Below are positions 1-51,475 of a stretch of DNA of 52,792 nucleotides, one piece after another. The notes below the pieces were generated by a model. It worked only from the letters and a program-made list of their open reading frames with translations. It was not told where the DNA came from and did no database searches. A program made the translations under genes and the position numbers. The DNA comes from Candidatus Woesearchaeota archaeon (GTDB lineage Archaea > Nanobdellota > Nanobdellia > Woesearchaeales > SM23-78): NCBI GenBank assembly GCA_016930415.1, contig JAFGGS010000012.1:1-52792 (forward strand). Reading direction: 5' to 3'. Within the stretch, counting starts at the first letter, position 1. Each line of letters starts with the position of its first letter.

Positions 1-252
1 ATCCAAACACGCTTTTCAAAAGTCAGTTTATACATATTAACCACCGAAGGTGGCTAATCAAACCGGAATTAAAAACGTGATAGCACACAAAGCCTTCCTG
101 ACAGAAACATATTTAAATGACTTCTTCCAGTTGTTTCTGATATTCAGAACTTTTGGCAGATTTTTTAGTTATTTTTTTGATAATTAGCATATTTTTTGTG
201 ATTTCAGACTTTTTTTCGGAAATTCAGAAAAATTAAGTGGATTCAAGGTAAA
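1..252. other. AT-rich upstream region of the AbrB/surface-protein operon
   Basis: No gene is visible. The region has a 5-bp hairpin (ccacc-gaa-ggtgg, 41-53), a TATA-like atatttaaat near 109-118 and three copies of ttcaga (143-148, 203-208, 223-228) in T-rich sequence. AbrB-type proteins often bind their own AT-rich upstream DNA, so these repeats are possible operators, but this is inference. No TATA box sits at the usual distance from the GTG start at 253. Confidence 0.35.
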
Positions 253-543
253 GTGAAGCGATACCCTAAGCTCGTGCAGTGTGACTCTAGAGGACAGATA
301 GTCATACCTAAAGAGATGAGGCAAGACTTAGGGGTTGAGGAAGGAACCGGATTCTGGATGTACTCGATAACAGACGAGGGCATACTTCTAAAGAAGGTCG
401 ACGCGCCAGAGCTCTCAAGCCACGAGAAGCTCCTAAGCGAAGTCCGTGAGAAATCCGCCAAGATTAAGGTCTCTAGGAAGAACGTCGACGAGTCCGAGAA
501 GAAGTACAAGAAGACGAAGAAGGGAAGGTTGGAACTGGTATGA
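253..543 (+). CDS. AbrB/SpoVT-type DNA-binding protein
   Basis: This 96-aa protein starts at GTG, with a weak aaggt Shine-Dalgarno at 246-250. Residues 1-48 match the swapped-hairpin AbrB fold (DSRGQIVIPKEMRQDLGVEEG, then a second strand pair). The rest is a charged helical tail rich in Lys and Glu. The fold is used by transcription regulators and antitoxins that dimerise on AT-rich operators. No toxin gene follows; the stop codon overlaps the ATG of the giant surface protein in an ATGA junction, so the two are probably translated in a coupled way. Autoregulation of the operon is the simplest role, but the sequence does not prove it. Confidence 0.85.
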   Translation: MKRYPKLVQCDSRGQIVIPKEMRQDLGVEEGTGFWMYSITDEGILLKKVDAPELSSHEKLLSEVREKSAKIKVSRKNVDESEKKYKKTKKGRLELV

Positions 544-3500
544 GCAGGCGATTCAAAGAAGGAACATGGAACGCCATGAAGGCATCGCTCGTGCTAGCCG
601 TGGCCATGATGGCAGTCCTTGTGTTCACTAATCTCGCGTTCTCGGCCGACAGCTCAACTTACGACCAAAGCATCAACCCAGGTTATCCGCTTCCGCCGGT
701 CAGCGCAGGCCAGAACGTGACCTTCACGGCTTACTGGGGCGGGGAGAACCAGTCAGTGCTCTTCTGCAACGACTCTACTTGCAGCTCTTGCTGGTATAGC
801 CGAGGTTCAAGCACTAGTGAGCTTAGCGGCTGCTGGTGCTATAGCCTGCCGATGGTGACTGCGCCTTTCAACTGCACTTACCAGACCTCAGACTCGACTC
901 CAAGGGACAATGTGTTCTACATGAGGCTCTACAACATAACCCAGAATTCATCAAGCGAGGGTTCCATCCACTCTGCAGGCACTGCTGAGAGCATATTCTA
1001 CGTCAACCACAGGCCGTATGCCCTGAACGTCTCGATAATCCCGACGCCGGCGTATAACTTCTCGAACATATCATGCAACTACACGTTCGCTGATCCTGAC
1101 AGCGACACCGAGAACCTTACAGGATCAGTATTTACCTGGTGGAGACTCAATAGCACCGGCAGCTACGAGGCGATCGCTGGCCAGACCGGGAAGAACCTCA
1201 CCGCGACGGTGTCCGGCTCTGAGATGATCAAGTGCGGAGTCAGGACCATGGACCAATACGGATTAACTGACGACATATACGTGAACTCTACGCCAGTCAA
1301 CATCACTGCTTACACCTCGACGACGCCTGTGCTTCACAACGTGACTGACGACTCTAACAGCTCTAACCCGACGATTGTCGGCTATGACGTGACTTTCACG
1401 ATCAACTGGAGCGTCGAGACCGGGCCTGTCGAAGCGAGGGCGTTCGTGTGCAATAACTCTGACATAACGGTCTCTGGCTGCGGAGTTGGCAACACGAACT
1501 ACTGCGCGTCTGCCTATGAGTCTTCCAACATAATATACTGCACTTACACTGTGCAGGACACTGACCCTGTCAACAACACCTACTTCGTGAGGCTGTGCAG
1601 CAACGCGAGCGAGTGTTCGCTCCAGGTGCTCAACGGCACTTTCGTCAGGTTCAATGACACGACCCCGCCGACCTTCAATTTGTCGTCGATAAACACGACT
1701 GGCGTCAGGCCTTACAACATGCAGTTCCTTGTCCTGGATGACTTCCAGATGAATATGTCATCCGTGATCCTGAACGTTACCTTGAACGGCACTTCCAACT
1801 CGTCGCTGTACAACTATACTGATATGACCTGCTCAGGCACCGACACCCAACGCACCTGCAACGTCTCGCTCAACTTGACCGACGGGGTCTACAACCTCAC
1901 CTTCTTCGTGAGGGACATGAACAACAATGCCAACACGACGAGAGCAGTGCTGCTCTACGACGCCACTGCAGGCTACATCTCGACGGTCTTCAACGGCTAC
2001 AACCAGACCAACCCGATAATCGCTGACGTCTCGACGACTAAGATGCTGTTCGCTAACTGGACCCCTGCTGAAGGCATGACTTCAGGAGTCGCTTATTACG
2101 AGTACGCGCTCGGCACTGCCAAGTATCCTGATGGAGGTTGGGATTCTCTCGTTACATGGACGAACGTGAGCATCAACAGGTCTGCTACAGGCAACTATTC
2201 CTTGTTGCACGGCACAGTCTATTATTTCAGCGTGCGCGCAATGTCAGGCTCTGGAGTCGCCTCGAACGTGACCTCGAGCAGCGGCATATTATATAATGAC
2301 GTGTCGGCGCCTATATGCTATGGAGGCGCGTGCATAATAGACGACGGCTATTGGGGCAGCAACAACAACACGAACTCGAAGACCGCGCTTCACTTCATAC
2401 TCAACTTCACAGAGGCAGGCTCACCCATCACCAGTTACGAGTACACCATAGGGAACACCACTTGTTTCGTGCCTGGCTATGATAGCGTGAGGACTGTGAC
2501 TGCAAGCGCTTCAAACGAGGTATACGCGACAGGGCTCACATTGCAGGACAACGTGACTTATTACGTCTGCGGAAGGGCTAAGTCCGCTAATAATAAATGG
2601 AGCGACTGGTTCAACACGACAGGCATCACGATTGATTCTATCCAGCCGGTCGGAGGTTCCATCTCATACACGCAGAACAACTTGTCGACCAACATGACGA
2701 CTGTATACTTGAGCTCTGGCTATGATACCATCAGCGGGGTTGGCAGCGTGGAGCTGCAATACGCCGAAGTCCTCTACAACCCGTCTCAGGGCTGCACTGG
2801 CTTCTCAGGCTACACTACATACAACGCGTCGCTCGTGCCGAGCGCGACCTCGCAGCTAGTCAGCCTGAGTCATGGCTACTGCTACAAGTTCCGCTATGTG
2901 GTGAGGGACTTTGCAGGGAACGCGCAGGTGTACTACTACGGCTCTGAGATCAGCTTCTACGTGGATAACACTCCGCCATTGAACTTCTCAGTCCAGATAA
3001 ACAACGGTGATTTCTACACCTACACCAGCAACCTCACCCTCAACTGGTCTCCTGCCTCTGATCCTGAGTCAGGCATCAGCTATTACTCTTACGTCGTCAA
3101 GGACGAATACGGAAACGTGGTGCGCGACTGGACCAACACGAGCCAGACCTTCATACCGCTCTCGAATCTCGCGTATTCGAACGGTACCCCGCTCGTGCAT
3201 GAGTGGAAGTATTACGCCATCGTCGTGGCTTACAACAAGCTAGGCATCCCTTTCAACTCTACGAGCAACCAGATACTCTACATAGATAACGCGCCGCCAT
3301 CCCCCGTAGTCATCCTGAGCGTCGCAGGAGACTCTAACGCCACCGACGGCTACGCTGACTACGTCAATGACGGAGTGACCAACGTGACTGTCTCAGGCGA
3401 GGACGGGATCGTCTGCGTCTATTCGCTCTACGACATAGACTATTCTGAGACTTACGGAAGCCTCTGTAATGATACTGGCGATAACGTGACTTGCTCCATA

Positions 3501-6500
3501 GCTTCTAGCGAGGGCACTAGCACTTACTACATAACCTGCAAGGACGCCGCTGGCAACGCCCAGACCGCGAGCCAGAATACCGCCGTCACTTTCTTCGCTG
3601 ACTGGAGCGGGCCCGCGATCTCGTCTGTCACTCCTGCTAACGGTGCCATAGTAACTGGTCAGATCACGATCTCAGCTTCAATAGTTGATACTGGTATCGG
3701 AGTGGTGGGTGCTGCCTGGTATAACATATCTAACCTATCCGGGTCAATTGTGAGTTCAGGAGCGCTTTCAAACACGGCAGGCAGCACTTACTCCGCCACC
3801 TGGGACAGCTCATCTTACGACCAGACGACTTACAACCTAGTCATATACGCCAATGACTCGCTAGGACTCGTGAGCAATGCCTCGTCGAACTTCACCATAA
3901 ACAGGGACCTGCCCTACTTGGAGGTCATGCACGAAGATTACTCATCCGAGCCAAACACCCAGTTCAACATATCCATAATCGCCCAGGTCTTCACTAACGT
4001 GAGCTACAACGTGACGAACTCGACCGGCGGACTAGTGGCTTCTGGAGATAATACGACCTCTCAATCAGGTAATAGGAACTATCTTTCATGGCCGGTCTTG
4101 CTCAACGTAACAAGCACTGTTGCTTGGCCTGACGGAGAGTATTACCTTGCTGTGCGCGCCGTCAACAACGCGTCTAACTCATCGACCGCCTCCTCGTCTT
4201 TCATAATAGACCGCGACGCCCCTGCATATTCAGGATTGACAAATACCTCTGCGATGACAGTTTACAACAACAACTCGCTGAACATATCCGTCAACTGGAC
4301 TGACGCTAACAACATCTCAGAGGTGAGGTTCGAGACTGACGCCCTGAACGGCAGCTTGGCCAACTACACTGCACTCGTGATTCAGGACGGCGATACCTTC
4401 TCGTTCTTCCTGGACGAGGCTTACCTGAGCAACAACGAGACTGTGCTCTGGAGGTTCTACGCAATGGACTCTGCAGGCCACTGGAACATGACTGAGCAGG
4501 ACGGCTTCACAGTGCAGAACAGGGACCCGATCATTAACTCGTCAGCTTCTCTTTCGAGGAACGCTTCGAAGAACGCCCAGTACATGATTGACCTGGATGA
4601 TGAGATATTCACTGACTACGACCTTGATAACCTGTCTTTCAACGCTAGCGGAAGCTACAACATCACGATCCTCTCGATTAACCAGGCGTCTGGTGTGATT
4701 ACCCTCAACTTCACTTACTCCTGGACCGGCGTGGAGAACATAACAGTGAACGTGACTGATCCTTTCGGAGGCTTCAACGAGACTGTTATCGAGATCAACG
4801 TGTCTAACAGTCCGCCAGTGTTCTCAGGCTCGATCCTGCCTATAAGCTGGCTTTACAACACGAACTATACCTTGTCATTGCCAACTTACTTCACGGATCC
4901 GAATGGAGACAACTTGACCTACAACTACACTGGTTCGGATAACGTGACTGCCGTAATCAATCAGACTAGCGGCAGCGCAGTCTTGGTGCCTGACTACGGC
5001 TGGACCGGACTTGGCTGGATCATCTTCAACTCGACTGACGATGAGGGCCTCAATTCTTCCTCTAACAACGTGACTCTCTACGCGTTCACGAGCATGGACA
5101 ACAGCACGGTCGTGAACTCCACTGTCAACGGAGTGTATTACTCAAACAACGAATCTAATTCGATATCAGGAATCGCTGACTCATACATATCCTCATCAAA
5201 CATATCCAATTCGATAGTGGTCAATTCCTCTGTCACTAACTGCACCATCCTGGACAGCACAGTAGAGAACGCTGTCCTCTCGGATTGCTACATCGATCCT
5301 TCCAGGATAATCAACTCGTCGCTCTACGAGGGCTCTGTCGTGGTCGATTCCAACGTGTCTGACTCGCTCTTGGTGAACGTGTCTGCGAACTATTCCTACG
5401 TCTTCAACGCGACAGTCTACGATACGGTCCTCCTGGGCGCTAACGTCACTGGCGACGTGATATACTCCGGCTTGATACTCATCTGGAACGCCAGCTATTA
5501 TAATGCTACGCTTTCAGGACCTGCTAACCTGTCAGACATCGTGAACTATCCTCCGGTCGCCGTGATACAGACTGCTGTGCTGGATTACGCTGGCTATGAC
5601 TCCACGTTCACGACCAGTTCCACTGACAGGAACATCAACTCCACCGGGGAGAGCCTGATTAACGACTCCTTGTCTTACACTTGGTTCTTCGGGGATGGGT
5701 ATTCCACGAACACGACCTCTACTTCGGCGAGCCATAACTATGCATCCGCCGGCTCTTTCACAGTCAACCTTACAGTCACTGACCGTTACGGCAGGTCTTC
5801 CAGCACGACGTACGGCGCCACTATCCAGAGCGAGTATAGCGGTGGCGGAGGAGGCGGTGGCGGCAGCTATCAGCCTGACAGCGCTGCTGATGACTCCAGG
5901 ACCACTAGCCTGGATGTCTCGACGGGTTTGGCGAGCTTCTACTTGTCAACCCTGGTCAACCTGAACAACTCTGCGAGGTTCCAGTACGGCTCCAGATATT
6001 ACACGATAACAGTCACTGGCGTCGGGCCTGACTTCGCCAGCATAAGGATAGACTCCTCTCCAGCCCAGACTTCGAGGATGATCGAGGGCGAGACTAATTA
6101 CTTTGATCTTGACGGGGATGGCTCAGAGGACATCAGTCTCTCCCTTGACGACGTGATCGCCAGCACTAAGGCTTATTTCACTCTTGGCATCTTGAAGAGC
6201 GCTCCTGAGCCTCCTCAGCAGGTGACTCCACCACCAGTTGAAGAGCCAGCATATACTCCTCCTGAGCAAGTTACTCCTCCTGTGGAGGAGAGGCCGACAA
6301 GGATTGAGCTTGAACCAGAAGAGCCTACGCAGACTTCAAGTTCCAAGTCGATCGTGCTCGCCTTGCTGGGGGTGTTGATCCTGGGATCTGTAGGAGTCTT
6401 ATACTACATGAACCGCGAGGCCTTGAGAAAGATACTCAACAAGCAGAATCCTGCGTTTGCAGGCACTGGCTTGCAGGTCTTCATGGCCGAGGATGACACG

Positions 6501-6818
6501 GACCAGTTCATAACCCAGGAGTTGTCGCTTGGCAAGACCTTCACTGACATCGCCACTTCCTTGGAGGATAATGGCTGGCCTGCGAGACAGGCTTATTCCA
6601 GGATCGCCCAGTATGTGGCTCGCGAAGGCATCAAGGAGGGCAAGAGCTTCAATATGATTTACGACGAGATGCTTGAGCACGGTTGGGATCAGGGGATCGT
6701 CACCTCGATCTTGAGCGAGTCTTTGATGTCTGACCATCCGCCGCCTTTCAAGCCTCAAGAGATTGGCAAGCAGCCTGAGATGCCTGCCAGGCTTGGGCCT
6801 GGTCTTGGGAAGCCTTGA
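540..6818 (+). CDS. giant Ig/PKD-repeat surface glycoprotein, C-terminally membrane-anchored
   Basis: The product is 2092 aa, secreted and membrane-anchored. Residues 1-36 form a signal peptide (hydrophobic KASLVLAVAMMAVLVF, cleavage near FSA-DSS); ATG at residue 13 is an alternative start. Most of the protein is Ig/fibronectin/cadherin-like repeats with DTTPP/DNTPP linkers and very many N-x-S/T sequons. Residues about 1520-1660 are short repeats (NSTV, SNIS, DSTVENAVLSDCYI) suggesting a small right-handed beta-helix. A PKD domain (TWFFGDG, then SHNYASAGSFTVNLTV) is at about 1667-1765, followed by a Gly8 linker, a Pro-rich stretch and a TM segment at about 1937-1959. The roughly 130-aa cytoplasmic tail has two copies of a helical motif (LGKTFTDIATSLEDNGW and EGKSFNMIYDEMLEHGW). 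An adhesin or S-layer-associated role is likely; the ligand is unknown. Confidence 0.85.
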   Translation: MSRRFKEGTWNAMKASLVLAVAMMAVLVFTNLAFSADSSTYDQSINPGYPLPPVSAGQNVTFTAYWGGENQSVLFCNDSTCSSCWYSRGSSTSELSGCWCYSLPMVTAPFNCTYQTSDSTPRDNVFYMRLYNITQNSSSEGSIHSAGTAESIFYVNHRPYALNVSIIPTPAYNFSNISCNYTFADPDSDTENLTGSVFTWWRLNSTGSYEAIAGQTGKNLTATVSGSEMIKCGVRTMDQYGLTDDIYVNSTPVNITAYTSTTPVLHNVTDDSNSSNPTIVGYDVTFTINWSVETGPVEARAFVCNNSDITVSGCGVGNTNYCASAYESSNIIYCTYTVQDTDPVNNTYFVRLCSNASECSLQVLNGTFVRFNDTTPPTFNLSSINTTGVRPYNMQFLVLDDFQMNMSSVILNVTLNGTSNSSLYNYTDMTCSGTDTQRTCNVSLNLTDGVYNLTFFVRDMNNNANTTRAVLLYDATAGYISTVFNGYNQTNPIIADVSTTKMLFANWTPAEGMTSGVAYYEYALGTAKYPDGGWDSLVTWTNVSINRSATGNYSLLHGTVYYFSVRAMSGSGVASNVTSSSGILYNDVSAPICYGGACIIDDGYWGSNNNTNSKTALHFILNFTEAGSPITSYEYTIGNTTCFVPGYDSVRTVTASASNEVYATGLTLQDNVTYYVCGRAKSANNKWSDWFNTTGITIDSIQPVGGSISYTQNNLSTNMTTVYLSSGYDTISGVGSVELQYAEVLYNPSQGCTGFSGYTTYNASLVPSATSQLVSLSHGYCYKFRYVVRDFAGNAQVYYYGSEISFYVDNTPPLNFSVQINNGDFYTYTSNLTLNWSPASDPESGISYYSYVVKDEYGNVVRDWTNTSQTFIPLSNLAYSNGTPLVHEWKYYAIVVAYNKLGIPFNSTSNQILYIDNAPPSPVVILSVAGDSNATDGYADYVNDGVTNVTVSGEDGIVCVYSLYDIDYSETYGSLCNDTGDNVTCSIASSEGTSTYYITCKDAAGNAQTASQNTAVTFFADWSGPAISSVTPANGAIVTGQITISASIVDTGIGVVGAAWYNISNLSGSIVSSGALSNTAGSTYSATWDSSSYDQTTYNLVIYANDSLGLVSNASSNFTINRDLPYLEVMHEDYSSEPNTQFNISIIAQVFTNVSYNVTNSTGGLVASGDNTTSQSGNRNYLSWPVLLNVTSTVAWPDGEYYLAVRAVNNASNSSTASSSFIIDRDAPAYSGLTNTSAMTVYNNNSLNISVNWTDANNISEVRFETDALNGSLANYTALVIQDGDTFSFFLDEAYLSNNETVLWRFYAMDSAGHWNMTEQDGFTVQNRDPIINSSASLSRNASKNAQYMIDLDDEIFTDYDLDNLSFNASGSYNITILSINQASGVITLNFTYSWTGVENITVNVTDPFGGFNETVIEINVSNSPPVFSGSILPISWLYNTNYTLSLPTYFTDPNGDNLTYNYTGSDNVTAVINQTSGSAVLVPDYGWTGLGWIIFNSTDDEGLNSSSNNVTLYAFTSMDNSTVVNSTVNGVYYSNNESNSISGIADSYISSSNISNSIVVNSSVTNCTILDSTVENAVLSDCYIDPSRIINSSLYEGSVVVDSNVSDSLLVNVSANYSYVFNATVYDTVLLGANVTGDVIYSGLILIWNASYYNATLSGPANLSDIVNYPPVAVIQTAVLDYAGYDSTFTTSSTDRNINSTGESLINDSLSYTWFFGDGYSTNTTSTSASHNYASAGSFTVNLTVTDRYGRSSSTTYGATIQSEYSGGGGGGGGSYQPDSAADDSRTTSLDVSTGLASFYLSTLVNLNNSARFQYGSRYYTITVTGVGPDFASIRIDSSPAQTSRMIEGETNYFDLDGDGSEDISLSLDDVIASTKAYFTLGILKSAPEPPQQVTPPPVEEPAYTPPEQVTPPVEERPTRIELEPEEPTQTSSSKSIVLALLGVLILGSVGVLYYMNREALRKILNKQNPAFAGTGLQVFMAEDDTDQFITQELSLGKTFTDIATSLEDNGWPARQAYSRIAQYVAREGIKEGKSFNMIYDEMLEHGWDQGIVTSILSESLMSDHPPPFKPQEIGKQPEMPARLGPGLGKP

Positions 6819-6837
6819 AGATGGCTTTGGCCATAAA

Positions 6838-6847
6838 CTTTTTAACC
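6838..6847 (+). promoter_or_regulatory. TATA box of trmI
   Basis: ctttttaacc is centred 28 nt before the ATG at 6871, the spacing expected of a leaderless archaeal transcript. Confidence 0.6.
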
Positions 6848-6870
6848 TATCCTTTTTTTCTTCCTTTTAC

Positions 6871-7644
6871 ATGAAGGTCTTGATCAAGAAAGAGAAGACT
6901 GTAGAGGTCGATGGCAAGAAGCGCGTCCTCTTCGGCTTTGAGAAGTACTACGTAGATCCCTCTAAGGATTTCCACACGCAGTTCGGGATGATAAGGAAGG
7001 AGGAGCTCTCTAAGAAGCCTGGCAGCACGCTCAAGATAGATTCTCACGAGTTCATCCTTTTGGACGCAGGCTTCCTTGACGATTACAAGCATTTGAGGAG
7101 GGCCGCGCAGATAATCGGCCTGAAGGACATCGGTCCAATCATCACGAATACTGGCTTGAATCGCGATTCCAAAGTGCTTGAGGCGGGTGTCGGCTCAGGC
7201 GCTCTTACCTGTTACCTCGCAGCTATCGTCAAGAAGGTCGTAAGCTTCGACGTGGACCTGCGCAGCCTTGATACTGCTAAGGAGAACGTGAAGCGCTTCG
7301 GCTACAAGAACGTCTCGATCTCCGAGGGAGATGTATACAATCCTTCGACTCTGGCCGCGACTAGGCAAAAAAGCTTTGACGTCATGGTCTTAGACGTCCC
7401 TGAGCCTTGGAAGGCTGTCGGCACTGCCAAGAAAGCGCTTAAGACAGGGGGTTTCCTTGTCGTTTACGTCCCTAACGTGTCGCAGGTCCAAGAGCTCATC
7501 AAGGGTCTTGGAGAGTCTTTCCTCGTAGAGAAGACTATAGAAGTCGTGGAGCGTGAGTGGGCTGTGGATGAGAACAGGACTCGGCCAGTCACGAAAGACC
7601 ATAGCCACACTGGGTTCTTGACGTTCGTTCGGAAGCTTTGCTGA
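6871..7644 (+). CDS. trmI: tRNA (adenine-N1)-methyltransferase TrmI
   Basis: The protein is 257 aa. It should transfer a methyl group from SAM to N1 of A57/A58 in the tRNA T-loop, as archaeal TrmI does. An N-terminal beta domain (about 1-80) precedes the Rossmann methyltransferase: motif I is VLEAGVGSGALT (102-113), the acidic ribose-binding stretch is SFDVD, and the catalytic-loop motif is LDVPEPW, matching the family D-x-P-x-PW. The frame is open from 6763, but a TATA box about 28 nt before the ATG at 6871 makes this leaderless start much more likely. The gene lies alone between the surface-protein operon and the convergent DUF1461/ABCE1 pair. Confidence 0.92.
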   Translation: MKVLIKKEKTVEVDGKKRVLFGFEKYYVDPSKDFHTQFGMIRKEELSKKPGSTLKIDSHEFILLDAGFLDDYKHLRRAAQIIGLKDIGPIITNTGLNRDSKVLEAGVGSGALTCYLAAIVKKVVSFDVDLRSLDTAKENVKRFGYKNVSISEGDVYNPSTLAATRQKSFDVMVLDVPEPWKAVGTAKKALKTGGFLVVYVPNVSQVQELIKGLGESFLVEKTIEVVEREWAVDENRTRPVTKDHSHTGFLTFVRKLC

Positions 7645-7739: not shown

Positions 7740-8465
7740 TTACTTCTTCCTTGCCTTGCCTGCCCTGCTGTTCCTGCTCTTGGCAATCGCTGAGCTGCTC
7801 CCTATGAAGTAGAGTATCAGCGCCATGATTAGCGCGTGGAAACCGATCTTCATGGTGAAATCCCTGAAGAACGAGTCTGGGTACATGGTCTTTATGAGCG
7901 AGTCCACCGCGAACATGTAGTTGCCTTGCGGGAAGAAGACTTGATGGAAGCTTAGGAACATCCAGTCGAAGCCAAAGAGGCTTAGGATGAAGAGTATCGC
8001 GAGCGCGCCTGCGGTCACGTACGCTGAGAATCTGAGGGTGCCTAGCAGTTTTCTCTTGAACCCTCCCTTGACGTAGGTCCTGCGAAGGGCGATCGCCAGG
8101 ATTATTATCGCTGCAAGGATAAGCCTCTTGCCAATCATGAACAGCCTGTGTACGTCTTGCAAGTGGGATTTCTCGTCTTGTGTGAACACGCTCAGGCCTG
8201 GTATGCTGTTAATTTCACCTTTTTCACTAATTAAGTAACTAGTTAAGTAGTCTGTCGTCTTGCGTATGCCTTCGACCCCGATATTTTCATAAGCCCCGTA
8301 CTTCGAGTAGCTCTTATCGTAGAATCCATGATCGAAGAAGACTAGGAGGAAGCTCGCTGAGAAGACGAGGAAGACGATCACGATGGCCGATACTATCTTC
8401 AGGACGAAGTCTTCTGTATTCCTCTCCTCGTGGCTGTTCCCTGCGTCATCACTATCCTTATGCAT
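7740..8465 (-). CDS. DUF1461 (TIGR01906-type) integral membrane protein
   Basis: This 241-aa protein has four TM segments: about residues 22-45, 112-127, 148-165 and 206-223. Between TM1 and TM2 lies an extracytoplasmic stretch with the family hallmark F-x-x-x-E-x-x-HLxDV (VFTQDEKSHLQDVHRLF). After TM3 comes the second hallmark, FDWMFLSFHQVFF followed by MYPDSFF. The family has no established function. The start overlaps the stop of ABCE1 by 8 bp, so it is the second gene of that operon. The C-terminus is a basic tail (KSRNSRAGKARKK). Confidence 0.8.
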   Translation of the reverse strand: MHKDSDDAGNSHEERNTEDFVLKIVSAIVIVFLVFSASFLLVFFDHGFYDKSYSKYGAYENIGVEGIRKTTDYLTSYLISEKGEINSIPGLSVFTQDEKSHLQDVHRLFMIGKRLILAAIIILAIALRRTYVKGGFKRKLLGTLRFSAYVTAGALAILFILSLFGFDWMFLSFHQVFFPQGNYMFAVDSLIKTMYPDSFFRDFTMKIGFHALIMALILYFIGSSSAIAKSRNSRAGKARKK

Positions 8466-10209
8466 AGTATAGCCGTCCTTTGCTCTTCTGTTCTGTGTCG
8501 AGCTGGCTTCCTGGCTTGTTGATCCGCGGGCGTTGAGTCTCCTCGTCGCGCCTGAACGTGAGCGCGATGTTTTTCAGGAAGCTGTTCATGCCTTGTTCCA
8601 TGAAGAATGGCCCCTCGACTTTCCCGCAGACTGCTGGTTTTCCGTCGAAGACCATGAGCCTGTCTGAGATCGTGTCTATGAACAATAAGTCGTGGTCGAC
8701 TATCAGCGCGCTCCTGTGGCTTAAGGAGAGGACTTCCCTTATGATCTTGCCGAGCCGCAAGCGCTGCTCCACGTCAAGGTATGCTGATGGCTCGTCCATG
8801 AGGAATAAGTCTGCGTCCTGGCTCAAGGCCTTTGCGATCTTCACTCGCTGAAGCTCTCCGCCTGATAACTCGCTTAGCTTCTTCATGAGCAAGCCTTTTA
8901 GCTCGAGGGGTCTCATGATCTGGACCTCGTACTTCTGGATGGCCTCCTGGAGGTATGTCATGACCATGTCGTCGCTTGGATCAAGGTATTGGGGCTTGTA
9001 GCTCACCTTCAGGTCTTGGATCTCGTGGCCTTTCGTCTCGCCCTCGCCTGCCAAAGTCCTTACGAAGCTTGTTTTTCCTATCCCGTTCTCTCCTAAGACT
9101 CCGACGATGTCGTTCCTGTAGATCTTGCCGGCGCTCGCCTCGAGCTCGAACTTGCCAAGCTTCTCCTTGAAGGGCTCCCAGGTCGTGAGAGTAACGCTCT
9201 TCTTGACGTCTATCGGCGGCCTCGCTTCGAACTTGATCTCGTGGTCCCGAAACCTTACGTTCTCTTCCTTCAGGAATCCTGAGAGGTAAGTGTTTATGCC
9301 TGCCTTCCCGCTCTTAGGCTGGCTCACGACTCCATACACCCCTGGTGCTCCATACATTAAGTGGACTATGTCTGCCAGGTAGTCCAGTATTATCAGGTCG
9401 TGCTCTATCACGACCACTCCGGTGTGCTCGTCTGCGAGCGAGCGTATGAACTGGCTTATCTTTAGGCGTTGCTTGACGTCCAGGTAGCTCGTCGGCTCGT
9501 CGAAGAAGTACACGTTCGCCTTCTTCAGGACGCACGCCGCAATTGCGACCCTCTGGAGCTCTCCGCCGCTGATCTTGGATATGTCATGATCTAGTATCGG
9601 AGTGATCTCAAGAGCGGCCGCGATCTCATCAAGCTTCCCTTGCTCGTCAGCGTGATGGAGAAGGTCCTTGACGATTCCCTGGAACTGCTTCGGGATGATC
9701 TCAACCTGTTGGGGCTTGTAGCTCACCTTGACCTCTCCCTTACCCATCCTCTCGAAGAATCCTTGGGCCTCGCTTCCCTTGAAGTACTCGACTACCTCTT
9801 TTTGCTCTGCGTCCCTGCCTATCTTTCCAAGGTTCGGCTTGTGCACACCTGCAAGTATCCTTACTGCAGTGCTCTTGCCTATGCCGTTCCTGCCGATTAT
9901 CCCGACGACCTTGCCGAATATGGGCGTCGGAAGGTTGTAGAGAGCGAAGCCGTTCTCAGAATACCTGTGTATCGGCTCCTTTGTGAGCTCTTCAGGAAGG
10001 TTGATGATCGATATCGCGCCGTAAGGGCAGCGGTTGACGCAAATCCCGCAGCCGATGCACAGGTCTTCGACTATCTTGATCTTCCCATCGGTGTCTTTCA
10101 CGATGCACTCCTTCGCCGTCCTGTTCACAGGGCATAGGCGCATGCAAAGATAGTTGCCGCACTCCTTCGGGTTGCACTTCTCCTTGTCGACGACTGCTAT
10201 TCGCTTCAT
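8458..10209 (-). CDS. abce1: ABCE1/Rli1 ribosome-recycling ATPase
   Basis: This 583-aa soluble twin-ABC protein splits post-termination ribosomes in archaea and eukaryotes. The N-terminal iron-sulfur domain has eight cysteines for two [4Fe-4S] clusters (C12, C17, C22, C26 and C51, C54, C57, C61; the second set is CIGCGICVNRC). The first ABC has Walker A GRNGIGKST (106-114), signature ISGGELQRV and Walker B VYFFDEPTSYLD. The second has GENGIGKTS, LSGGELQRV and LFLMDEPSAYLD. All catalytic elements look intact and the length is normal for the family. The ATG at 10209 is about 29 nt from a TATA box (leaderless). It is divergent from polB and followed by the overlapping DUF1461 gene. Confidence 0.97.
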   Translation of the reverse strand: MKRIAVVDKEKCNPKECGNYLCMRLCPVNRTAKECIVKDTDGKIKIVEDLCIGCGICVNRCPYGAISIINLPEELTKEPIHRYSENGFALYNLPTPIFGKVVGIIGRNGIGKSTAVRILAGVHKPNLGKIGRDAEQKEVVEYFKGSEAQGFFERMGKGEVKVSYKPQQVEIIPKQFQGIVKDLLHHADEQGKLDEIAAALEITPILDHDISKISGGELQRVAIAACVLKKANVYFFDEPTSYLDVKQRLKISQFIRSLADEHTGVVVIEHDLIILDYLADIVHLMYGAPGVYGVVSQPKSGKAGINTYLSGFLKEENVRFRDHEIKFEARPPIDVKKSVTLTTWEPFKEKLGKFELEASAGKIYRNDIVGVLGENGIGKTSFVRTLAGEGETKGHEIQDLKVSYKPQYLDPSDDMVMTYLQEAIQKYEVQIMRPLELKGLLMKKLSELSGGELQRVKIAKALSQDADLFLMDEPSAYLDVEQRLRLGKIIREVLSLSHRSALIVDHDLLFIDTISDRLMVFDGKPAVCGKVEGPFFMEQGMNSFLKNIALTFRRDEETQRPRINKPGSQLDTEQKSKGRLYYA

Positions 10210-38120: not shown

Positions 38121-38207
38121 AGCCCCTGGCCGGATTTGAACCGGCGACCTGCTGATTGCTTGAAATGGTTTACAAGTCAGCTGCACTAGCCACTATGCTA
38201 CAGGGGC
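38121..38207 (-). tRNA. tRNA-Thr(UGU) with a 14-nt intron
   Basis: The acceptor stem GCCCCTG/CAGGGGC, D-arm GCAT-AGTGGCTA-GTGC, anticodon stem GCTGA/TCAGC and T-arm GCCGG-TTCAAAT-CCGGC all pair, with U73 encoded at 38121. The anticodon loop is CTTGTA plus A (anticodon UGU) and is interrupted after position 37 by AACCATTTCAAGCA. CTTG pairs with CAAG, with a 3-nt CAA bulge next to the anticodon stem; cutting after the second nucleotide on both sides gives the normal 7-nt loop. This is a relaxed bulge-helix-loop substrate for the splicing endonuclease. G1-C72, C2-G71 and U73 fit archaeal Thr identity. No CCA is encoded. Confidence 0.93.
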
Positions 38208-44489: not shown

Positions 44490-47400
44490 TCAGCTGCCTG
44501 GCCAGTATGGTTTTATCCAGTCTTCATCTTCAGCCTTTGCTTTCTTCGCGTTTTCCTCTTCCTGCTTCTTGCGGGCCGCCTTCCTTCGCTTCCCTGTGAG
44601 GAGGATTATCGTCCCTATGGCTGCCGCTCCCAGGAATGCAAAGAGGTATCTTTGGTTCTCCTTCCTTATCACCTTGCTGACGATTGTCTCTGGCTTCTGG
44701 ACTGTCCTCTTGGACACGCTCACGAGGTACTTGCACCCTTCGATGACTCCGTCGACGATGTTTATGGCTTCCTCGTTGGACCCTCCGTTCGCAAGCTCTT
44801 CCTTTGCCTTGGTGAGCAGCTCGTTTAGCTCCAGGCACTCAGGGTTCTCGTTGAGGAGGTCCTGGGCGAATGTGACTTTCGTCTGTATGTCCTTGCCTGT
44901 CTGCGACTGCTCGATGGTGTTCAGGAAGACGTACGCAGAGTCCCCTGTCTCCGGCTCAGTCACGTTCGCCATGATCTGGATCTTGTAGTCATCTCCCAGC
45001 CTGTAATTAGTGACTGAGAGCGTGACGTTCCTCACTTCTCCCCTCTTTATCTCGTCAAAATAGTCTTCTGAGAACTGGAAGTCTATCTCAGGGGGCAGCG
45101 CGCTCACGTTCAGCCTTACGCCTGTCAGCGTGGAGTTCCAGGTGTTCTGGATGCCTATAGGGATGACTACTGTCTTGTTCTCGTACACAGTGACTATCTC
45201 AGGCACGACTATCTCTATGGCTTGCGGTTTTATGTCCTCCTTTGTTATGGGGATCGGGATCGGGCTGTTCCTCGAGCTCCCTCCTCCGCCGCTCTGCGGC
45301 TGGGGGGTCTCGACGACCGTGGTCTCGTTGCTTATCTGGAGCGCTTCTATGAATACTGCATTGCTCTCAAGAGTCAGGCTTTCAGGATCGGTTGCCGTGA
45401 ACGTGACTGTGCAGTTGCCGATGGATGTCGGCCTCACCCTGAGCGTGTGCGATTCTATTGTGAGCGTGGCTACGTTGCAGCTCGTGACGGTGTATGTCAA
45501 CAGGCTCGTCTCTCCCTCGTCGAATACGTTGTTGCTGTTGTTGTCGTCGTCAGGGTCGATATAGTGCGTCCCGAGGTAGGATCTCATGAGGTACTCGTTG
45601 TATACTGTCGTCCCATTGGCTGATATGTTCCTCAGGGCGTTTATCAGCGCCGGCGCCCGATTGACGTCGGTGGTCGTCCCGCTCCACGTGAACGATGCGT
45701 TCTCGAAGTAGTCGTCCTCGACGCGTACGCTCACAGTCTCGCTCCCTTCCGAGAAGAAGCCGTAGCTCCTAGTGTAGTTCGTCTGGTTAGTCGTGTTCAG
45801 GGCCAGCGTCCCGTCCACGTACCATAAGAATGTCAGGTTGGTGACTGGCGTCTCGTCAGTCAAGTTGAGCGTGAAGTTTATCGTCGTGTTCTCTGGGAAA
45901 GTTATCCCTGTGCTGTTGTTCGGGAAGAGGCTCCTGTTGGCGAAGGCGAACACGATGATGCTGTTCAGCGGCGTGCCGTAAGGATACACTTGCGTGATGT
46001 TCGGAGCGTTGCTCTTGGCTATCACTGTGAAGTTCTTGTTGATCGTGTGGGTCGCCCCGTAATAGTCCGTGGCTGTGATGTTGATGCTGTAATTTCCCGC
46101 AGTCCCTAACTCCGGAACGAATAGCACCTGGCCGTGGCTCTTGTTGGTTGCGGAGTTCCAGGCAGTCGTGATGTTGAAGAGCAGGGACCCTGAGATGTTT
46201 ATCACGCTGAAGTTCACGTACTCATAGCTTGGAATTAAGAGGTAGTCGTCGTCATTCGCGTCGATGCTGAATGACACTGTGTGGGTCTCCACTATCTTCG
46301 GGAACGTGAAGTCCACGACGCTTGGTGCGTCGTTCGTATTGTTTATGATGACTGTTATGGTCTCGTTGTCTATCGCGCCTTTCGTGTCAGTCACGGTCAC
46401 GAGCAAGGAGTAGTTGCCTACGAGGCTCTGATCCGGCGTGTAGTTGGCGTAGGCGCTGGCGACCGGCGTCTGGGTGGAGTTATCCGTGAGGTCGAAGACT
46501 GCCGTGTTGTTGCTGCTGAAGGTCAGGTCCTCGTTGTCAGCATCAGACGCGCTCACCCATTCTGTGCAGAGCACGTCCTCGAAGCAGGTGATTGTTCCGA
46601 TAGGGTTCAGGATCGGGGCTGAGTTGTTGATGACCGTCAGGTTCATCATCTCAGTGTCGAATAGTCCTCCGTCGTCAGTCACGGTGATGTTTATCGTGTG
46701 GTTCCCGACGTCTGATGCGGATGGCGTGAACTGTACTAGCCCTGTGATTGAGTTCGTGACGAATAGGCCGCTGTCGTCTGAGAAGCTCAGCACCTCTCCT
46801 TCGTATGTCAGCTCGTCAGGGTCTGTGGCGTTCACAAGGTATGTGAACTCTGCGCTCACGTAAGCGGTCAGGTTGCTGATGTTCTGCTGGCCTGCCGTGT
46901 TATTATAATAGGAGCTGAGGACGTGTACGATTGGGGGATCGTTTGTGTTAGAAATGTTCAAGAACACGTCTTGAGAGTCCTCAGCTCCTTTGTCGTCGAC
47001 GACTATGAATCTCACTGTCCTGCACACTACGTGCTCGTTCGTGAGGGTTGTGATGTTGACGAGTCCAGTCGCGTTCTGCGAGTTGTTCGTCGTGGTGATG
47101 TTCCAGATGCCTGAGTACTGGCATCCTATTATTATCGTGCTGAAGTTCAGGGTCGCGTTTGCGTCTGAGTCGTTAGCGGTCACGTTGAAGACCAGTGAGC
47201 TGCCTTGCGTGGCGTTGTACATCGGGATGAATTGGAGCGTCGGAGCCATGTTCACGGGCAGTATCTCCAGGATGAAGGTCCTGCTTCGCGTGGCGTTCAG
47301 AGTGTCTGAAACGTTCACGGTCACGGTGTAGTTACCTGCATCGAAGAAGCTTGCAGTGCTGTTGCCTGCGAACATCATGGTGGCTGACGTGTTGCTGGTC

Positions 47401-48239
47401 TGGTTTATGATCAGGTTCAGGGTCGGATCTATGCTTATGCTGAAGTTGAAGGGCTGGTTGTCCTCCTCGTCAGTCGCTGTTATAGGGTAGTTGAATATCT
47501 CTCCTTCATTCATGGTCTGGTTTGCTAATGTGAAGTCTGGCGCGTCGTTCATGTAGGTCACGTTGAACTGCACCTTCTTGGTGGATACCCCTGGACTTCC
47601 GCCGTAGTTGTCTGTGGCGTAGAGCGTGATGTTCTGGGTCGTGCTAGTGTATGTGGGGGTCCACGTGAAGACGCCAGTCCCTGAATCTAATGATGAGCCT
47701 GAAGGCAGGGATCCGAAGTATCCGTATATCACTGAGTCAGAGTCAGGGTCTGTAGATGAGAGCGTGAAGTTGTTAGCTATGTCCTCGTACACCTGCGTGA
47801 TGTTGGTCACGCTGCTGCCGGTATCATTGGTCATTGTGGGGGTCGTCGGCGGCGCGTTTTTTATAGTGACATTAGACGAGAGGTTGATGGTCTCTGTGCC
47901 GTTGCCCAGGAACACCTGGCAGGTCCAGACCTCTCCCCTTGCAGTGCTGCTCGAGCCCAGCAAAGATGACAGCCCGCTTATGCCTGTGTCGTTCAGGTAT
48001 TGCACGCTTCCGTTGTACCAGGTCACGTTCTGGGACGTCGTGCCAGTGGACGCGTTCCAGGAGCACGTGAGGTCGTCTGTCGTGTCAGGCCTCTCAGTGC
48101 TGTTGGGGCTTACGTAGGGGTTTGTCGTGAACGAGACTGGGGTTGCAACGTACGCCAATGCCAGCAGCAAGGCTAGCGCTAGGGCTGGCATGATCGTCCT
48201 CTTCCAAATACTTGCTTTCGCCTCAGCGCCTCTTCTCAT
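44490..48239 (-). CDS. giant cadherin/Ig-repeat surface glycoprotein, C-terminally anchored
   Basis: The protein is 1249 aa. A signal peptide or anchor (TIMPALALALLLALAYVATP) leads to about nine cadherin/He_PIG-like repeats with the recurrent NDAPxF...ATDxEDNxP...TVNVSDT pattern and very many N-x-S/T sequons. After a Gly-rich linker (SGGGGSSRN, about 1015) comes an NPCBM/CARDB-like sandwich (VVIPIGIQNTWNSTLTG), a helical stalk with two Cys, a TM (YLFAFLGAAAIGTIILLT) and a basic tail. The ATG at 48239 has a gaggag Shine-Dalgarno and overlaps the last RHH gene by 17 bp. An adhesion or cell-wall role is likely. Confidence 0.85.
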   Translation of the reverse strand: MRRGAEAKASIWKRTIMPALALALLLALAYVATPVSFTTNPYVSPNSTERPDTTDDLTCSWNASTGTTSQNVTWYNGSVQYLNDTGISGLSSLLGSSSTARGEVWTCQVFLGNGTETINLSSNVTIKNAPPTTPTMTNDTGSSVTNITQVYEDIANNFTLSSTDPDSDSVIYGYFGSLPSGSSLDSGTGVFTWTPTYTSTTQNITLYATDNYGGSPGVSTKKVQFNVTYMNDAPDFTLANQTMNEGEIFNYPITATDEEDNQPFNFSISIDPTLNLIINQTSNTSATMMFAGNSTASFFDAGNYTVTVNVSDTLNATRSRTFILEILPVNMAPTLQFIPMYNATQGSSLVFNVTANDSDANATLNFSTIIIGCQYSGIWNITTTNNSQNATGLVNITTLTNEHVVCRTVRFIVVDDKGAEDSQDVFLNISNTNDPPIVHVLSSYYNNTAGQQNISNLTAYVSAEFTYLVNATDPDELTYEGEVLSFSDDSGLFVTNSITGLVQFTPSASDVGNHTINITVTDDGGLFDTEMMNLTVINNSAPILNPIGTITCFEDVLCTEWVSASDADNEDLTFSSNNTAVFDLTDNSTQTPVASAYANYTPDQSLVGNYSLLVTVTDTKGAIDNETITVIINNTNDAPSVVDFTFPKIVETHTVSFSIDANDDDYLLIPSYEYVNFSVINISGSLLFNITTAWNSATNKSHGQVLFVPELGTAGNYSINITATDYYGATHTINKNFTVIAKSNAPNITQVYPYGTPLNSIIVFAFANRSLFPNNSTGITFPENTTINFTLNLTDETPVTNLTFLWYVDGTLALNTTNQTNYTRSYGFFSEGSETVSVRVEDDYFENASFTWSGTTTDVNRAPALINALRNISANGTTVYNEYLMRSYLGTHYIDPDDDNNSNNVFDEGETSLLTYTVTSCNVATLTIESHTLRVRPTSIGNCTVTFTATDPESLTLESNAVFIEALQISNETTVVETPQPQSGGGGSSRNSPIPIPITKEDIKPQAIEIVVPEIVTVYENKTVVIPIGIQNTWNSTLTGVRLNVSALPPEIDFQFSEDYFDEIKRGEVRNVTLSVTNYRLGDDYKIQIMANVTEPETGDSAYVFLNTIEQSQTGKDIQTKVTFAQDLLNENPECLELNELLTKAKEELANGGSNEEAINIVDGVIEGCKYLVSVSKRTVQKPETIVSKVIRKENQRYLFAFLGAAAIGTIILLTGKRRKAARKKQEEENAKKAKAEDEDWIKPYWPGS

Positions 48240-48357
48240 CCAAGTTCTCCTCGAGCGTCTTGATTATAATGTCCTTGAGCGATATCCCCTTTGACGCGGA
48301 CAATATCTTGATCTTCTTGTGCACTTCTTCCGGGACCTCTATGTTTATATTCGGCAT
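48223..48357 (-). CDS. ribbon-helix-helix protein 4 of a tandem array
   Basis: The 44-aa protein MPNINIEVPEEVHKKIKIL... is a minimal RHH/CopG-like fold: a beta strand for the DNA groove (NINIEV) and two helices (EEVHKKIKILSASKG, SLKDIIIKTLEENL). Its coding DNA is nearly identical to copy 3 over 77 bp (48272-48348 versus 48424-48500, two mismatches), a recent duplication. Its C-terminus differs (LDEKRR) because the frame runs into the overlapping start of the 1249-aa surface-protein gene. Confidence 0.8.
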   Translation of the reverse strand: MPNINIEVPEEVHKKIKILSASKGISLKDIIIKTLEENLDEKRR

Positions 48358-48368
48358 CTTTATGTTCC

Positions 48369-48509
48369 TCAGACCTTCATCTTGAGCTCTTTCGACTTCT
48401 CCTCGAGAGCCTTGACGATGAGATCCTTGAGCGATATCCCCTCTGACGCGGACAATATCTTGATCTTCTTGTGCACTTCTTCCGGGACTTCTATGTTTAT
48501 GTTAGGCAC
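48369..48509 (-). CDS. ribbon-helix-helix protein 3 of a tandem array
   Basis: This 46-aa GTG-initiated RHH protein has the strand PNINIEV, helix 1 EEVHKKIKILSAS and helix 2 LKDLIVKALEEKSKEL, ending KMKV. The Shine-Dalgarno is taggag, 9 nt before the start. It follows copy 2 by 16 bp. RHH dimers insert the two-strand ribbon in the DNA major groove; with four paralogues, heterodimers are possible. Confidence 0.8.
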   Translation of the reverse strand: MPNINIEVPEEVHKKIKILSASEGISLKDLIVKALEEKSKELKMKV

Positions 48510-48525
48510 GTTTTTCTTCTCCTAG

Positions 48526-48666
48526 CTAAACCTTCATCTTGAGTTCTTTCGACTTCTCCTCGAGTGCTTTCACGATCAGCTCCTTGAGCGGTATCCCTTC
48601 TGAAGCCGCGATTATCTTGATCTTCTTGTGGATCTCCTCTGGTATCTCGATGTTTATGTTGGGCAT
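48526..48666 (-). CDS. ribbon-helix-helix protein 2 of a tandem array
   Basis: The 46-aa protein reads MPNINIEIPEEIHKKIKII, then AASEGIPLKELIVKALEEKS and a KELKMKV end. It starts at ATG with gagg 5 nt upstream, 8 bp after copy 1. It is intermediate in sequence between copy 1 and copies 3/4, as in an array grown by successive duplication. Confidence 0.8.
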   Translation of the reverse strand: MPNINIEIPEEIHKKIKIIAASEGIPLKELIVKALEEKSKELKMKV

Positions 48667-48674
48667 CTTGTCCT

Positions 48675-48815
48675 CTATAGCTTCGCCTTGAGCTCCTTTG
48701 ACTTCTTCTCAAGAACCTTGACGATGTAATCCTTCAAAGTGGTGTCCTCCATGATGGAGGCCAGTTTCACCTTCTTGTGAAGCTCTTCAGATATCTCGAT
48801 GTTAATGTTTACCAC
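48675..48815 (-). CDS. ribbon-helix-helix protein 1 of a tandem array
   Basis: The 46-aa protein starts at GTG: MVNINIEISEELHKKVKLA, then SIMEDTTLKDYIVKVLEKKS and KELKAKL. It is the most divergent of the four and lies nearest the promoter/operator. The RHH family provides antitoxins and small repressors. No toxin gene (MazF, RelE, ParE type) is present among these genes, so regulation of the array and the surface protein is more likely than toxin neutralisation. Confidence 0.8.
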   Translation of the reverse strand: MVNINIEISEELHKKVKLASIMEDTTLKDYIVKVLEKKSKELKAKL

Positions 48816-48825
48816 AATCAACCAC

Positions 48826-48886
48826 TAACTTAGCTAACTTAGTTTAGTTACTTAACTTGGTTAACTAAACTAACTTATTTATAAGC
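48826..48886 (-). promoter_or_regulatory. promoter with operator repeats for the RHH array and surface protein
   Basis: A palindromic TATA cttatttataag (48875-48886) predicts transcription start near 48853. A perfect 12-bp inverted repeat, ttagtttagtta (48839-48850) and taactaaactaa (48862-48873), brackets this point, and a direct repeat taacttag (two copies, from about 48827) lies beside it. Short repeated half-sites like these suit cooperative RHH binding and autoregulation. Confidence 0.65.
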
Positions 48887-49250: not shown

Positions 49251-51266
49251 CTAGCTCTTCTTCTCTCTCCACGCCCAGCCGTTGACGTAGGTCACGTTGT
49301 TGTAGAGTCTTTGGATGTCGCTGAACACCGCTTCTTCCTCGGCTACGCTTAGCTTGTCGTATTCTTCTATTATCTCGAGGTATTTCTTCTTGGCGGCTTC
49401 TGCCTCTATGAATTCCAGGGCGATGTAAGCGTTTATCATCATGGTCGTCATTTTCTCTTTCTGGCTCCCGCTTTCCTTTATCTTGAGCTCTTGGACTTCC
49501 CGCGGATACTCTCCTGGCGTGTATTCTGATGTCTGGAGCACTATGTTCCTGAGCTCTTCTAGGAGCAGCATCGTCTTGGTCTTTGTTATGAGGCTCTCAT
49601 CCTTCGATACCTTGTCGTACTCATCATTCATTGACGCGAATACCTTCCTGAGCAAAGGTATTATCTTCGCCTTCCCTTTCACGAGGCTATTATCGAAATC
49701 CTCTCGTTCATAGTCCTGCTTCAGCTTGAGCACCTTGGAGAAGTAATATCTCAAGAGGTCGCTGTACTTGGTGAGCCTCTCGAAGAGCTGCTCTCTTGAC
49801 TCTGTCTTCTCAAGCTTGGCCTGAAGCGGTATTATCTCAGCTAGGAGTTTCTTCTGGTCCTCCTTTGAGAGCAGGTATTGCTTCCTCTTGTTCCTGCTTA
49901 TGAACCATCCGAACTTGGCGAGGGCCTGGTTTATCTCCTTCTTGAAGTAATGATACAGCAATATCGCTGCTAAGAGCAGCATGAGACTGCCTGTGACCAG
50001 GTACATTCCTATCCCTCTCTCTTCCTGGAAGGGATACGGGACCTGGACGCTCTTGCAGACTGGGCAAGGCCCGCCGCAGTCGATCCCTTCCTCGCACGAG
50101 CCGTCGTGACAGTTCATTATCTCGTCATCACAGGTTCCAAGGTACTCGCACTCCTGTACTTCCAGGGGTTGGGTCCTGTTGGTGCCGCAGTTGTTCAAGT
50201 CCTTGCATACCCTCTTCTGCTGGCCTTCAGGCGTGCACACATCCCATTCAGAGCAGATCCAGTTCTCCTCGCACTCGGTTATCTCCTCGTACTTGCAGGG
50301 GAGTGTTATGAATTTCTCAAGCGAGCATCCCTTCGTGTCGACGCACCTCATGAGCTTCTGGTTCGTGACGTTGCACCTGTGATACTCGAAACACTCGTAT
50401 TCCGGATCAGGGCATATCACTGACGAGCCTCCTCCTCCTCCGCCGCTTCCAGTGGTGCTAGGCCCTTCAGTGCTAGGCGTGGTAGTCCTGCGCACGCAGG
50501 TGATGGAGACTAGGTTGCTATACGCGGTCTCGTTGTCAGGATCCATTGCTGTGAAGATGACTTGTTCTGTCAGGCCGCAGGCGGTTGCGCTTATCGCTAC
50601 CTCGCTGGTCCCGTATATCGTGACTGTGATATTGCTGTTCCCGCTCACGACGTAGGTCAAGGGGTCCAAGTCAGGGTCGCCGAAGTATTCGTTCAGGTAG
50701 AATACGTGGATGGTCTCTCCCTCGTAGAAGGTCTGGTCTGATATGTTCTTTATGAGGTATGGCGGGTCGTTGGTGTTGTTGATCGTGAGGTAGAACTGCT
50801 TGGTGCCTATCCTGTTGTCGCATCCTGTCTCGTCATCAGCAGCTAGCTGCAGCAGGTACACCCCCACGTTCCCGTTGCTCGTGTTGAAAGTGGTGAAGCC
50901 GGTAGGATGAACGTCTATGGGGGACTCGTTCGAGGTGAAGAAGCTCCTGTTCGCAGAGATCAATGTTGATGAGAAGCTGACGTTGTTCCCGTCAGCGTCT
51001 GTCGCGTTTATTGTGCAGTTGTAGTCGTCGTCCTGGTTTATGGTGAAGAAGAAGCCTGTCGAGTTTGACAGGTACAGGCAGGTACCATTGTAGATTACTG
51101 GCGGCGTGTTGATGCAGAAATCCACCTGGCCGTAGGCCTTGCCGGTCACGCTCCTGGCCTCTTCGGCTAGGCCTGCCTTGTTCAGGCTCCAGATGGTGAG
51201 GGTGGCGGAGTATATCATGATTAGGACTAGAACTACTACTAGGATGTTTCTTCCAAATTCCCTCAT
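49251..51266 (-). CDS. TSP1/cadherin-like membrane glycoprotein with cytoplasmic helical domain
   Basis: The protein is 671 aa from ATG 51266. An N-terminal TM (NILVVVLVLIMIYSATLTIW) is followed by two Ig/cadherin-like domains, a Gly6 linker, a Cys-rich region with a thrombospondin type 1-like repeat (CEENWICSEWDVC, RVCKDLNNCG) and the motif GIDCGGPCPVC, then a second TM (MYLVTGSLMLLLAAILLYHYF). The last 230 residues are cytoplasmic helices ending in the same Tyr-rich module as the 42829 product. The frame extends to 51353, but the TATA at 51292-51301 fits ATG 51266. Probably an adhesive or envelope-linking protein. Confidence 0.82.
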   Translation of the reverse strand: MREFGRNILVVVLVLIMIYSATLTIWSLNKAGLAEEARSVTGKAYGQVDFCINTPPVIYNGTCLYLSNSTGFFFTINQDDDYNCTINATDADGNNVSFSSTLISANRSFFTSNESPIDVHPTGFTTFNTSNGNVGVYLLQLAADDETGCDNRIGTKQFYLTINNTNDPPYLIKNISDQTFYEGETIHVFYLNEYFGDPDLDPLTYVVSGNSNITVTIYGTSEVAISATACGLTEQVIFTAMDPDNETAYSNLVSITCVRRTTTPSTEGPSTTGSGGGGGGSSVICPDPEYECFEYHRCNVTNQKLMRCVDTKGCSLEKFITLPCKYEEITECEENWICSEWDVCTPEGQQKRVCKDLNNCGTNRTQPLEVQECEYLGTCDDEIMNCHDGSCEEGIDCGGPCPVCKSVQVPYPFQEERGIGMYLVTGSLMLLLAAILLYHYFKKEINQALAKFGWFISRNKRKQYLLSKEDQKKLLAEIIPLQAKLEKTESREQLFERLTKYSDLLRYYFSKVLKLKQDYEREDFDNSLVKGKAKIIPLLRKVFASMNDEYDKVSKDESLITKTKTMLLLEELRNIVLQTSEYTPGEYPREVQELKIKESGSQKEKMTTMMINAYIALEFIEAEAAKKKYLEIIEEYDKLSVAEEEAVFSDIQRLYNNVTYVNGWAWREKKS

Positions 51267-51291
51267 TATAGAGTGCTTCCTGGTCATCTCT

Positions 51292-51301
51292 TTATTTAAA
51301 A
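51292..51301 (-). promoter_or_regulatory. TATA box of the TSP1-type gene
   Basis: ttttaaataa on the minus strand is centred about 30 nt before ATG 51266 and sits within the longer open frame, arguing against the ATGs at 51314 and 51287. Confidence 0.5.
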
Positions 51302-51349
51302 CTTTCTCAAGCATGGGGCTCCTGTTCAAGAAGTCAGAGATTATTATTG

Positions 51350-51475
51350 GCAAGCGAAGCTTGCGACGGGGTTTAATATAGGGAAATGCCTTTGCATTTC
51401 TCGTACCAGCAACTTTGTTGCAGGATACCCCGAACTTTAGTGCGAGCTTGCTACAGCAAAACCTTCTGGTTTTGC
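51350..51475. other. cluster of five hairpins, possible structured RNA or repeat element
   Basis: Perfect stems are gcaagc-gaa-gcttgc (51350-51364), gaaatgc-cttt-gcatttc (51383-51400), gcaac-ttt-gttgc (51409-51421) and gcaaaacc-ttct-ggttttgc (51456-51475). The pair cggggt/accccg (51367-51372, 51427-51432) encloses the middle two as a branched fold. The 126-nt cluster lies between two minus-strand genes, upstream of the TATA box of the TSP1-type gene. No coding sequence. Confidence 0.5.

Follow-up and report, generated by a model that had tools for sequence, protein, structure and literature searches.

An essentially single-copy AbrB-fold gene coupled to giant surface-protein genes in Woesearchaeota-like archaea, with a predicted operator array at its own promoter

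In Bacillus subtilis, the DNA-binding proteins AbrB and SpoVT regulate many genes. The same fold occurs in type II toxin-antitoxin (TA) operons of the VapBC and MazEF kind, where the first gene encodes an AbrB-fold antitoxin, an ATGA overlap joins it to the second gene, and a palindromic operator lies in the operon's own promoter. For MazE6 an operator of 18 bp is reported (PMC9477884). The nearest published case is VapB14 of Sulfolobus acidocaldarius, an archaeal antitoxin that affects surface structures and biofilm; it keeps its toxin, VapC14, and acts beyond its own promoter (PMC10127717). Giant transmembrane (TM)-anchored, Ig-type surface proteins with cytoplasmic parts, proposed to bind the host, are found in Nanohaloarchaeota; the cytoplasmic parts there carry a VirB4/TraG-like ATPase domain, and the available parts of that paper describe no pairing with a regulator (PMC10266531). 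Here we analyze a 52,792-nt stretch of DNA from a Candidatus Woesearchaeota archaeon (GCA_016930415.1, contig JAFGGS010000012.1; hereafter the window), in which an AbrB-fold gene runs into the gene for a surface protein of 2092 amino acids (aa). Both genes and their overlap were found as the preliminary description had reported them (Table 1), and no toxin gene adjoins the AbrB gene in the window. In contrast to VapBC and MazEF, the second gene of such operons codes for a protein that is secreted or TM-anchored and may reach 4565 aa, at least two predicted operators stand at a 20-bp pitch, and the module is essentially single copy per genome. Unlike VapB14, the regulator appears to be limited to its own operon, and unlike the B. 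subtilis proteins, to one promoter per genome. The literature searched, to which preprints and most subscription papers did not belong, holds no description of an AbrB gene paired with a giant surface gene.

The 96-aa product of the first gene scores 30.1 bits against PF04014 (MazE/AbrB; cut-off 24.7), and the profile of its family matches the solved structures of AbrB and SpoVT. The AlphaFold2 model of the protein matches AbrB, SpoVT and Sso7c4 in Foldseek at a modest level (predicted local distance difference test score 74; best E value 2e-3). As modelled, it has the swapped-hairpin DNA-binding domain that marks members of the SpoVT/AbrB superfamily. The product of the second gene matches the PKD, Big_7 and Big_13 domains, and its sequence shows a hydrophobic segment at the N-terminus, a TM segment towards the C-terminus and, beyond that, a cytoplasmic tail. 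It contains 118 N-x-S/T sequons, where 42 would be expected from composition, as expected of a glycosylated surface protein. A role as an adhesin is plausible; one in an S-layer or in host attachment fits equally well.

Thirty-two relatives of the AbrB protein, 42–65% identical to it, were found in GTDB species contigs, all of them from archaeal metagenome-assembled genomes that, where labelled, are called Woesearchaeota or Nanoarchaeota. A gap separates them from ordinary AbrB proteins in a protein search followed by an alignment search. Altogether 41 members of the subfamily were collected, essentially one per genome and all within a single order of Woesearchaeota-like DPANN archaea. A match at E<=1e-12 is present in 45 of the 352 genomes of that order, about 38 of them with a strong one, and essentially always in single copy; in a phylum-wide draw, strong matches were confined to the same order. 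The subfamily forms one side of a branch that divides it from ordinary VapB-like proteins (support 100/99). A viral origin of the module was considered and set aside, no relative having been found in viral contigs.

The subfamily is set apart by what follows its genes. In 30 of the 41 members the next gene lies within 40 bp and encodes a protein with a hydrophobic N-terminus, taken as secreted or membrane-bound; the next gene overlaps by exactly 4 bp in 26 members and is at least 690 aa long in 24, with complete examples of 4565, 3771, 3746, 3635, 3582 and 3368 aa. Most of the 22 ordinary AbrB genes taken from the same order precede a PIN- or RelE-type toxin, and half of them (11/22) show the 4-bp overlap, mostly onto PIN/VapC-like genes of about 133 aa. 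Only one is coupled to a secreted or membrane gene (1/22; Fisher p=1e-7) and none to one that reaches 690 aa (0/22; p=1e-6), a contrast that excludes chance pairing. Enrichment of such pairs among relatives was the test on which the preliminary description had staked its 'antitoxin-fold regulator plus giant surface protein' module, and the module proves to be conserved across many families of the order. The coupled surface proteins themselves fall into several families that could not be aligned with one another at the threshold used. In about half of the 4-bp overlaps a GGAGG-like ribosome site occupies the last AbrB codons, 10–12 nt before the giant start; the corresponding site in the window is weak. 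The overlap leaves space for a promoter of the giant gene's own only within the AbrB gene.

Some loci vary on this arrangement. Two tandem AbrB genes precede the surface gene at L060:2832-3271 and upstream of L058 and L062. At L035:3237-4628 and L038:10428-11819 lies a gene for a 463-aa Schlafen/AlbA_2 plus RecG-C-like protein, followed in L035 by a surface gene. About 240 bp past an AbrB gene that lacks a coupled surface gene, a Fic/Doc-like open reading frame (ORF) was noticed (L056:695-1042; HVFEEGNKRTA motif, by eye). Two small ORFs in front of other giant genes (G018, G039) look AbrB-like by eye and were not retained, as no profile supports them.

Candidate operators were sought among all exact inverted repeats with arms of 4 to 6 bases in the 250 bp upstream of 33 members, with shuffled sequences as the control. 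Among 5-base arms TCTGA-N3-TCAGA ranked first, being present in 25 of the 33 regions; no palindrome of any kind exceeded five in the shuffles. When 420 bp were considered, the predicted operator was exact in 33 of the 41 members and within one mismatch in 40, so that at the level of sequence nearly all carry a palindrome in their own promoter, as TA operons do. The exact motif was absent from 281 upstream regions of other genes on the same contigs and from those of the 22 ordinary AbrB genes. Most loci have two copies. The distances between neighbouring copies (n=34) are 40, 57, 60–61, 79–80, 96, 100–102, 120–122, 141 and 171 bp, and they are periodic (R=0.88 at 20.25 bp; maximum of 0.55 across 2000 random sets). 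Of 77 solo half-sites, 58 are in the 20-bp register, and some loci have phased arrays that reach six or seven half-sites. Because the loci are related, these counts are not fully independent; spacing nonetheless varies among loci in steps of 20 bp. The window, which is contig C19 of a 1.30-Mb assembly, begins at a contig end, so that 252 bp are known upstream of its AbrB gene; operator 1 sits 117 bp ahead of the AbrB start.

The motif is close to unique to this promoter. The single exact operator in the 1.3 Mb of the genome is unlike the many targets of a global AbrB-type regulator. Sites with one mismatch number 57, against 47 in a reversed control, and thus no regulon is visible. In seven relatives one or two exact sites accompany each AbrB gene, and a few more are scattered elsewhere. 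A wider regulon was rejected for want of a genome-wide excess of one-mismatch sites; furthermore, in five loci without a coupled surface gene the sites with an A/T spacer are located at the AbrB gene, and none was seen in trans. In most loci a TATA-like box lies 15–18 or 22–27 bp above the outer operator. Archaeal transcription starts at this distance below the TATA box.

We propose, with a probability of roughly 0.78, that the AbrB protein acts as a dedicated transcriptional autoregulator of one giant-surface-protein operon, most likely by repressing it, and that it caps the dose of the product. The regulator gene would stand first in the operon and the giant gene second, and through the overlapping stop and start codons translation of one message would yield both proteins. 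AbrB would bind the TCTGA-N3-TCAGA sites from the transcription start into the leader; its level would report the amount of operon message translated, and the promoter would be shut, which would limit how much of a very costly surface protein is made. What the sequences themselves show is the pairing, the overlap and the array of sites, with its phasing and its near confinement to this promoter. Autorepression is suggested because in most loci the outer site lies across the expected start of transcription, which is the usual position of a repressor site in archaea. The control imagined in the preliminary description, by phase or by feedback, thus survives in its second half, for which the array at the operon's own promoter speaks strongly; nothing seen supports the first. 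The architecture would be that of a TA operon with a surface protein in the toxin's place. As no small toxin gene (PIN, MazF or RelE) is adjacent to the AbrB-fold gene, the module is not filed as a type II TA system, despite the similar working proposed for it.

Several observations weigh against this proposal. Binding of AbrB to the array, repression by that binding and dosage control as its purpose are deduced from sequence patterns, and the footprint expected of an activator would differ little. The AbrB gene is missing from six other species of the same genus, and in L035 and L038 the gene that follows it is of the Schlafen/AlbA_2 type. Moreover, the clade of five without a coupled surface gene (G363, L050, L056, L057, L065) keeps both the AbrB gene and the operator (exact or with one mismatch), and the regulator is therefore not strictly tied to a surface gene. 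The same clade would suit an orphan antitoxin relic, i.e., a VapB-like protein that lost its toxin and still represses itself, with the surface gene as a positional passenger under no meaningful control; the fold and the 4-bp overlap, shared with VapB-VapC-like pairs of these genomes, are likewise what a relic would show. We consider a relic quite improbable, since the coupling persists across changes of surface-gene family and over a size range of 255 to 4565 aa, and since AbrB stays conserved to the degree given above while the surface proteins turn over.

A protein that activates the promoter, or organizes it locally in a chromatin-like manner, has an equally small chance of being the right description. 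The 20-bp array would then nucleate a filament or loop, and a signal would decide whether this exposes the promoter or shuts it. The longest phased arrays would fit such a role, and a member of the superfamily from archaea, Sso7c4, is a chromosomal protein that bends DNA (PMC5222340). The overlap of the outer site with the expected transcription start in most loci argues for repression instead. The remaining alternative, a phase-variable or bistable surface switch, we regard as very improbable. Autoregulation through cooperative sites could in principle yield bistability; however, the module is essentially single copy per genome, and the locus showed no sign of an invertible element, a slipped-strand tract or a recombinase, although no systematic search was made for them.

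Between one and six repeats of about 45 aa with a conserved GW form the cytoplasmic end of many of the coupled surface proteins. Some of the repeats in relatives match the RecX three-helix domain (RecX_HTH1, PF21982; E value 2.4e-8) and are predicted to be all-helical; a Foldseek search with the tail model gave no significant match. Tails with up to six tandem units were noted in surface proteins of L061, L046, L055 and L040. One TrmI row partly contaminated the tail hidden Markov model (HMM), and its matches to TrmI were disregarded. In the loci fetched for this work the tail looked specific to AbrB coupling, but when the search was widened, 48 of 58 genomes of the order proved to carry it; it is thus a lineage-wide domain, not special to the AbrB module, and was dropped as a signature. 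Most other giant proteins that bear it have no small DNA-binding gene in front. It seems unlikely, if worth stating, that the RecX-like tail takes over from the toxin by binding AbrB and altering its hold on the operator, so that the cell would sense the amount or state of its surface protein. If true, the contact between tail and AbrB would be a toxin-less TA circuit that reads the cell surface and adjusts surface protein synthesis.

The window holds a second such arrangement. A second giant gene behind ribbon-helix-helix (RHH) genes had been noted before, and the four tandem RHH ORFs are indeed there. Other species of the genus, and several other families as well, have RHH genes preceding a gene for a giant protein of about 1250 aa. 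A different protein, of more than 1716 aa, is the partner in G010, and in G048 and G050 the partner reads as an archaeal pilus-type ATPase operon. The heptamer TAACTTA/TAAGTTA occurs in 31 copies at the promoters of 12 of 13 RHH loci (2.1 expected); exact palindromes, also considered as operators, hardly exceed shuffled sequences there. Two unrelated DNA-binding folds, AbrB and RHH, hold the same position before giant genes. At L215:10112-12525 (minus strand) and L217:515-5366 a single RHH gene, with a promoter repeat of the same kind, abuts an apparent operon for an archaeal pilus/Tad-type ATPase and a TadC-like protein. This suggests that RHH autoregulators also front secretion operons. Beside the RHH module in the window is a third large surface-type gene (49251-51353, minus strand; 700 aa) with a weak Ig-like match; judged by eye, other species of the genus have apparent homologues of its C-terminal region just upstream of their RHH genes.

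Table 1. Coordinates of the described features within the window
Feature	Position	Strand	Remarks
TATA-like box of the operon promoter (inferred)	112..119	+	24 bp upstream of operator 1
Predicted operator 1, TCTGATATTCAGA	136..148	.	sole exact TCTGANNNTCAGA in the 1.3-Mb genome
Solo half-site TCAGA	204..208	.	in 20-bp register
Predicted operator 2, TCGGAAATTCAGA	216..228	.	1 mismatch; 80 bp from operator 1
AbrB/SpoVT-fold regulator	253..543	+	GTG start, 96 aa, PF04014 match
ATGA stop-start overlap	540..543	+	AbrB gene end / giant gene start; translational coupling
Giant surface protein, Ig/PKD type, TM-anchored	540..6818	+	ATG start, 2092 aa
C-terminal TM segment of the 2092-aa protein	6351..6411	+	approximate; read directly from sequence
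RecX-like three-helix unit in the cytoplasmic tail	6588..6722	+	tail HMM match, residues 2017-2061
TrmI/GCD14 tRNA methyltransferase	6763..7644	+	downstream neighbour in many relatives too; probable true start near 6850
Second giant surface protein	44490..48239	-	1249 aa; 17-bp overlap between its start and the last RHH gene
Four tandem RHH genes	48223..48821	-	44-48 aa each; precede second giant gene
Promoter of the second module with its TAAGTTA/TAACTTA-type repeat array	48822..48884	-	repeated heptamer

In many relatives, as in the window, the surface gene has a TrmI/GCD14 gene behind it in the same orientation. The window also has a Lit-like lipoprotein transacylase homologue (PF07314) beside ABCE1/RLI (7740-10209, minus strand), which relatives keep near TrmI. 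Farther along, ARAGORN calls a tRNA with an odd four-base anticodon (tgta) at 38121-38207 on the minus strand, for which an intron or a false call is possible.

The archaea that carry this module are tiny and probably symbiotic, and DPANN archaea in general are thought to depend on surface contact with their hosts. Nothing on how the synthesis of their enormous surface proteins is controlled was found in the literature searched. In the module described here both the regulator and the operator are defined and each genome has a single target, which opens the question to direct testing in vitro. The results also suggest an evolutionary route on which the design of the TA operon, in versions built on the unrelated folds AbrB and RHH, may have been put to new use in controlling the dosage of surface structures.
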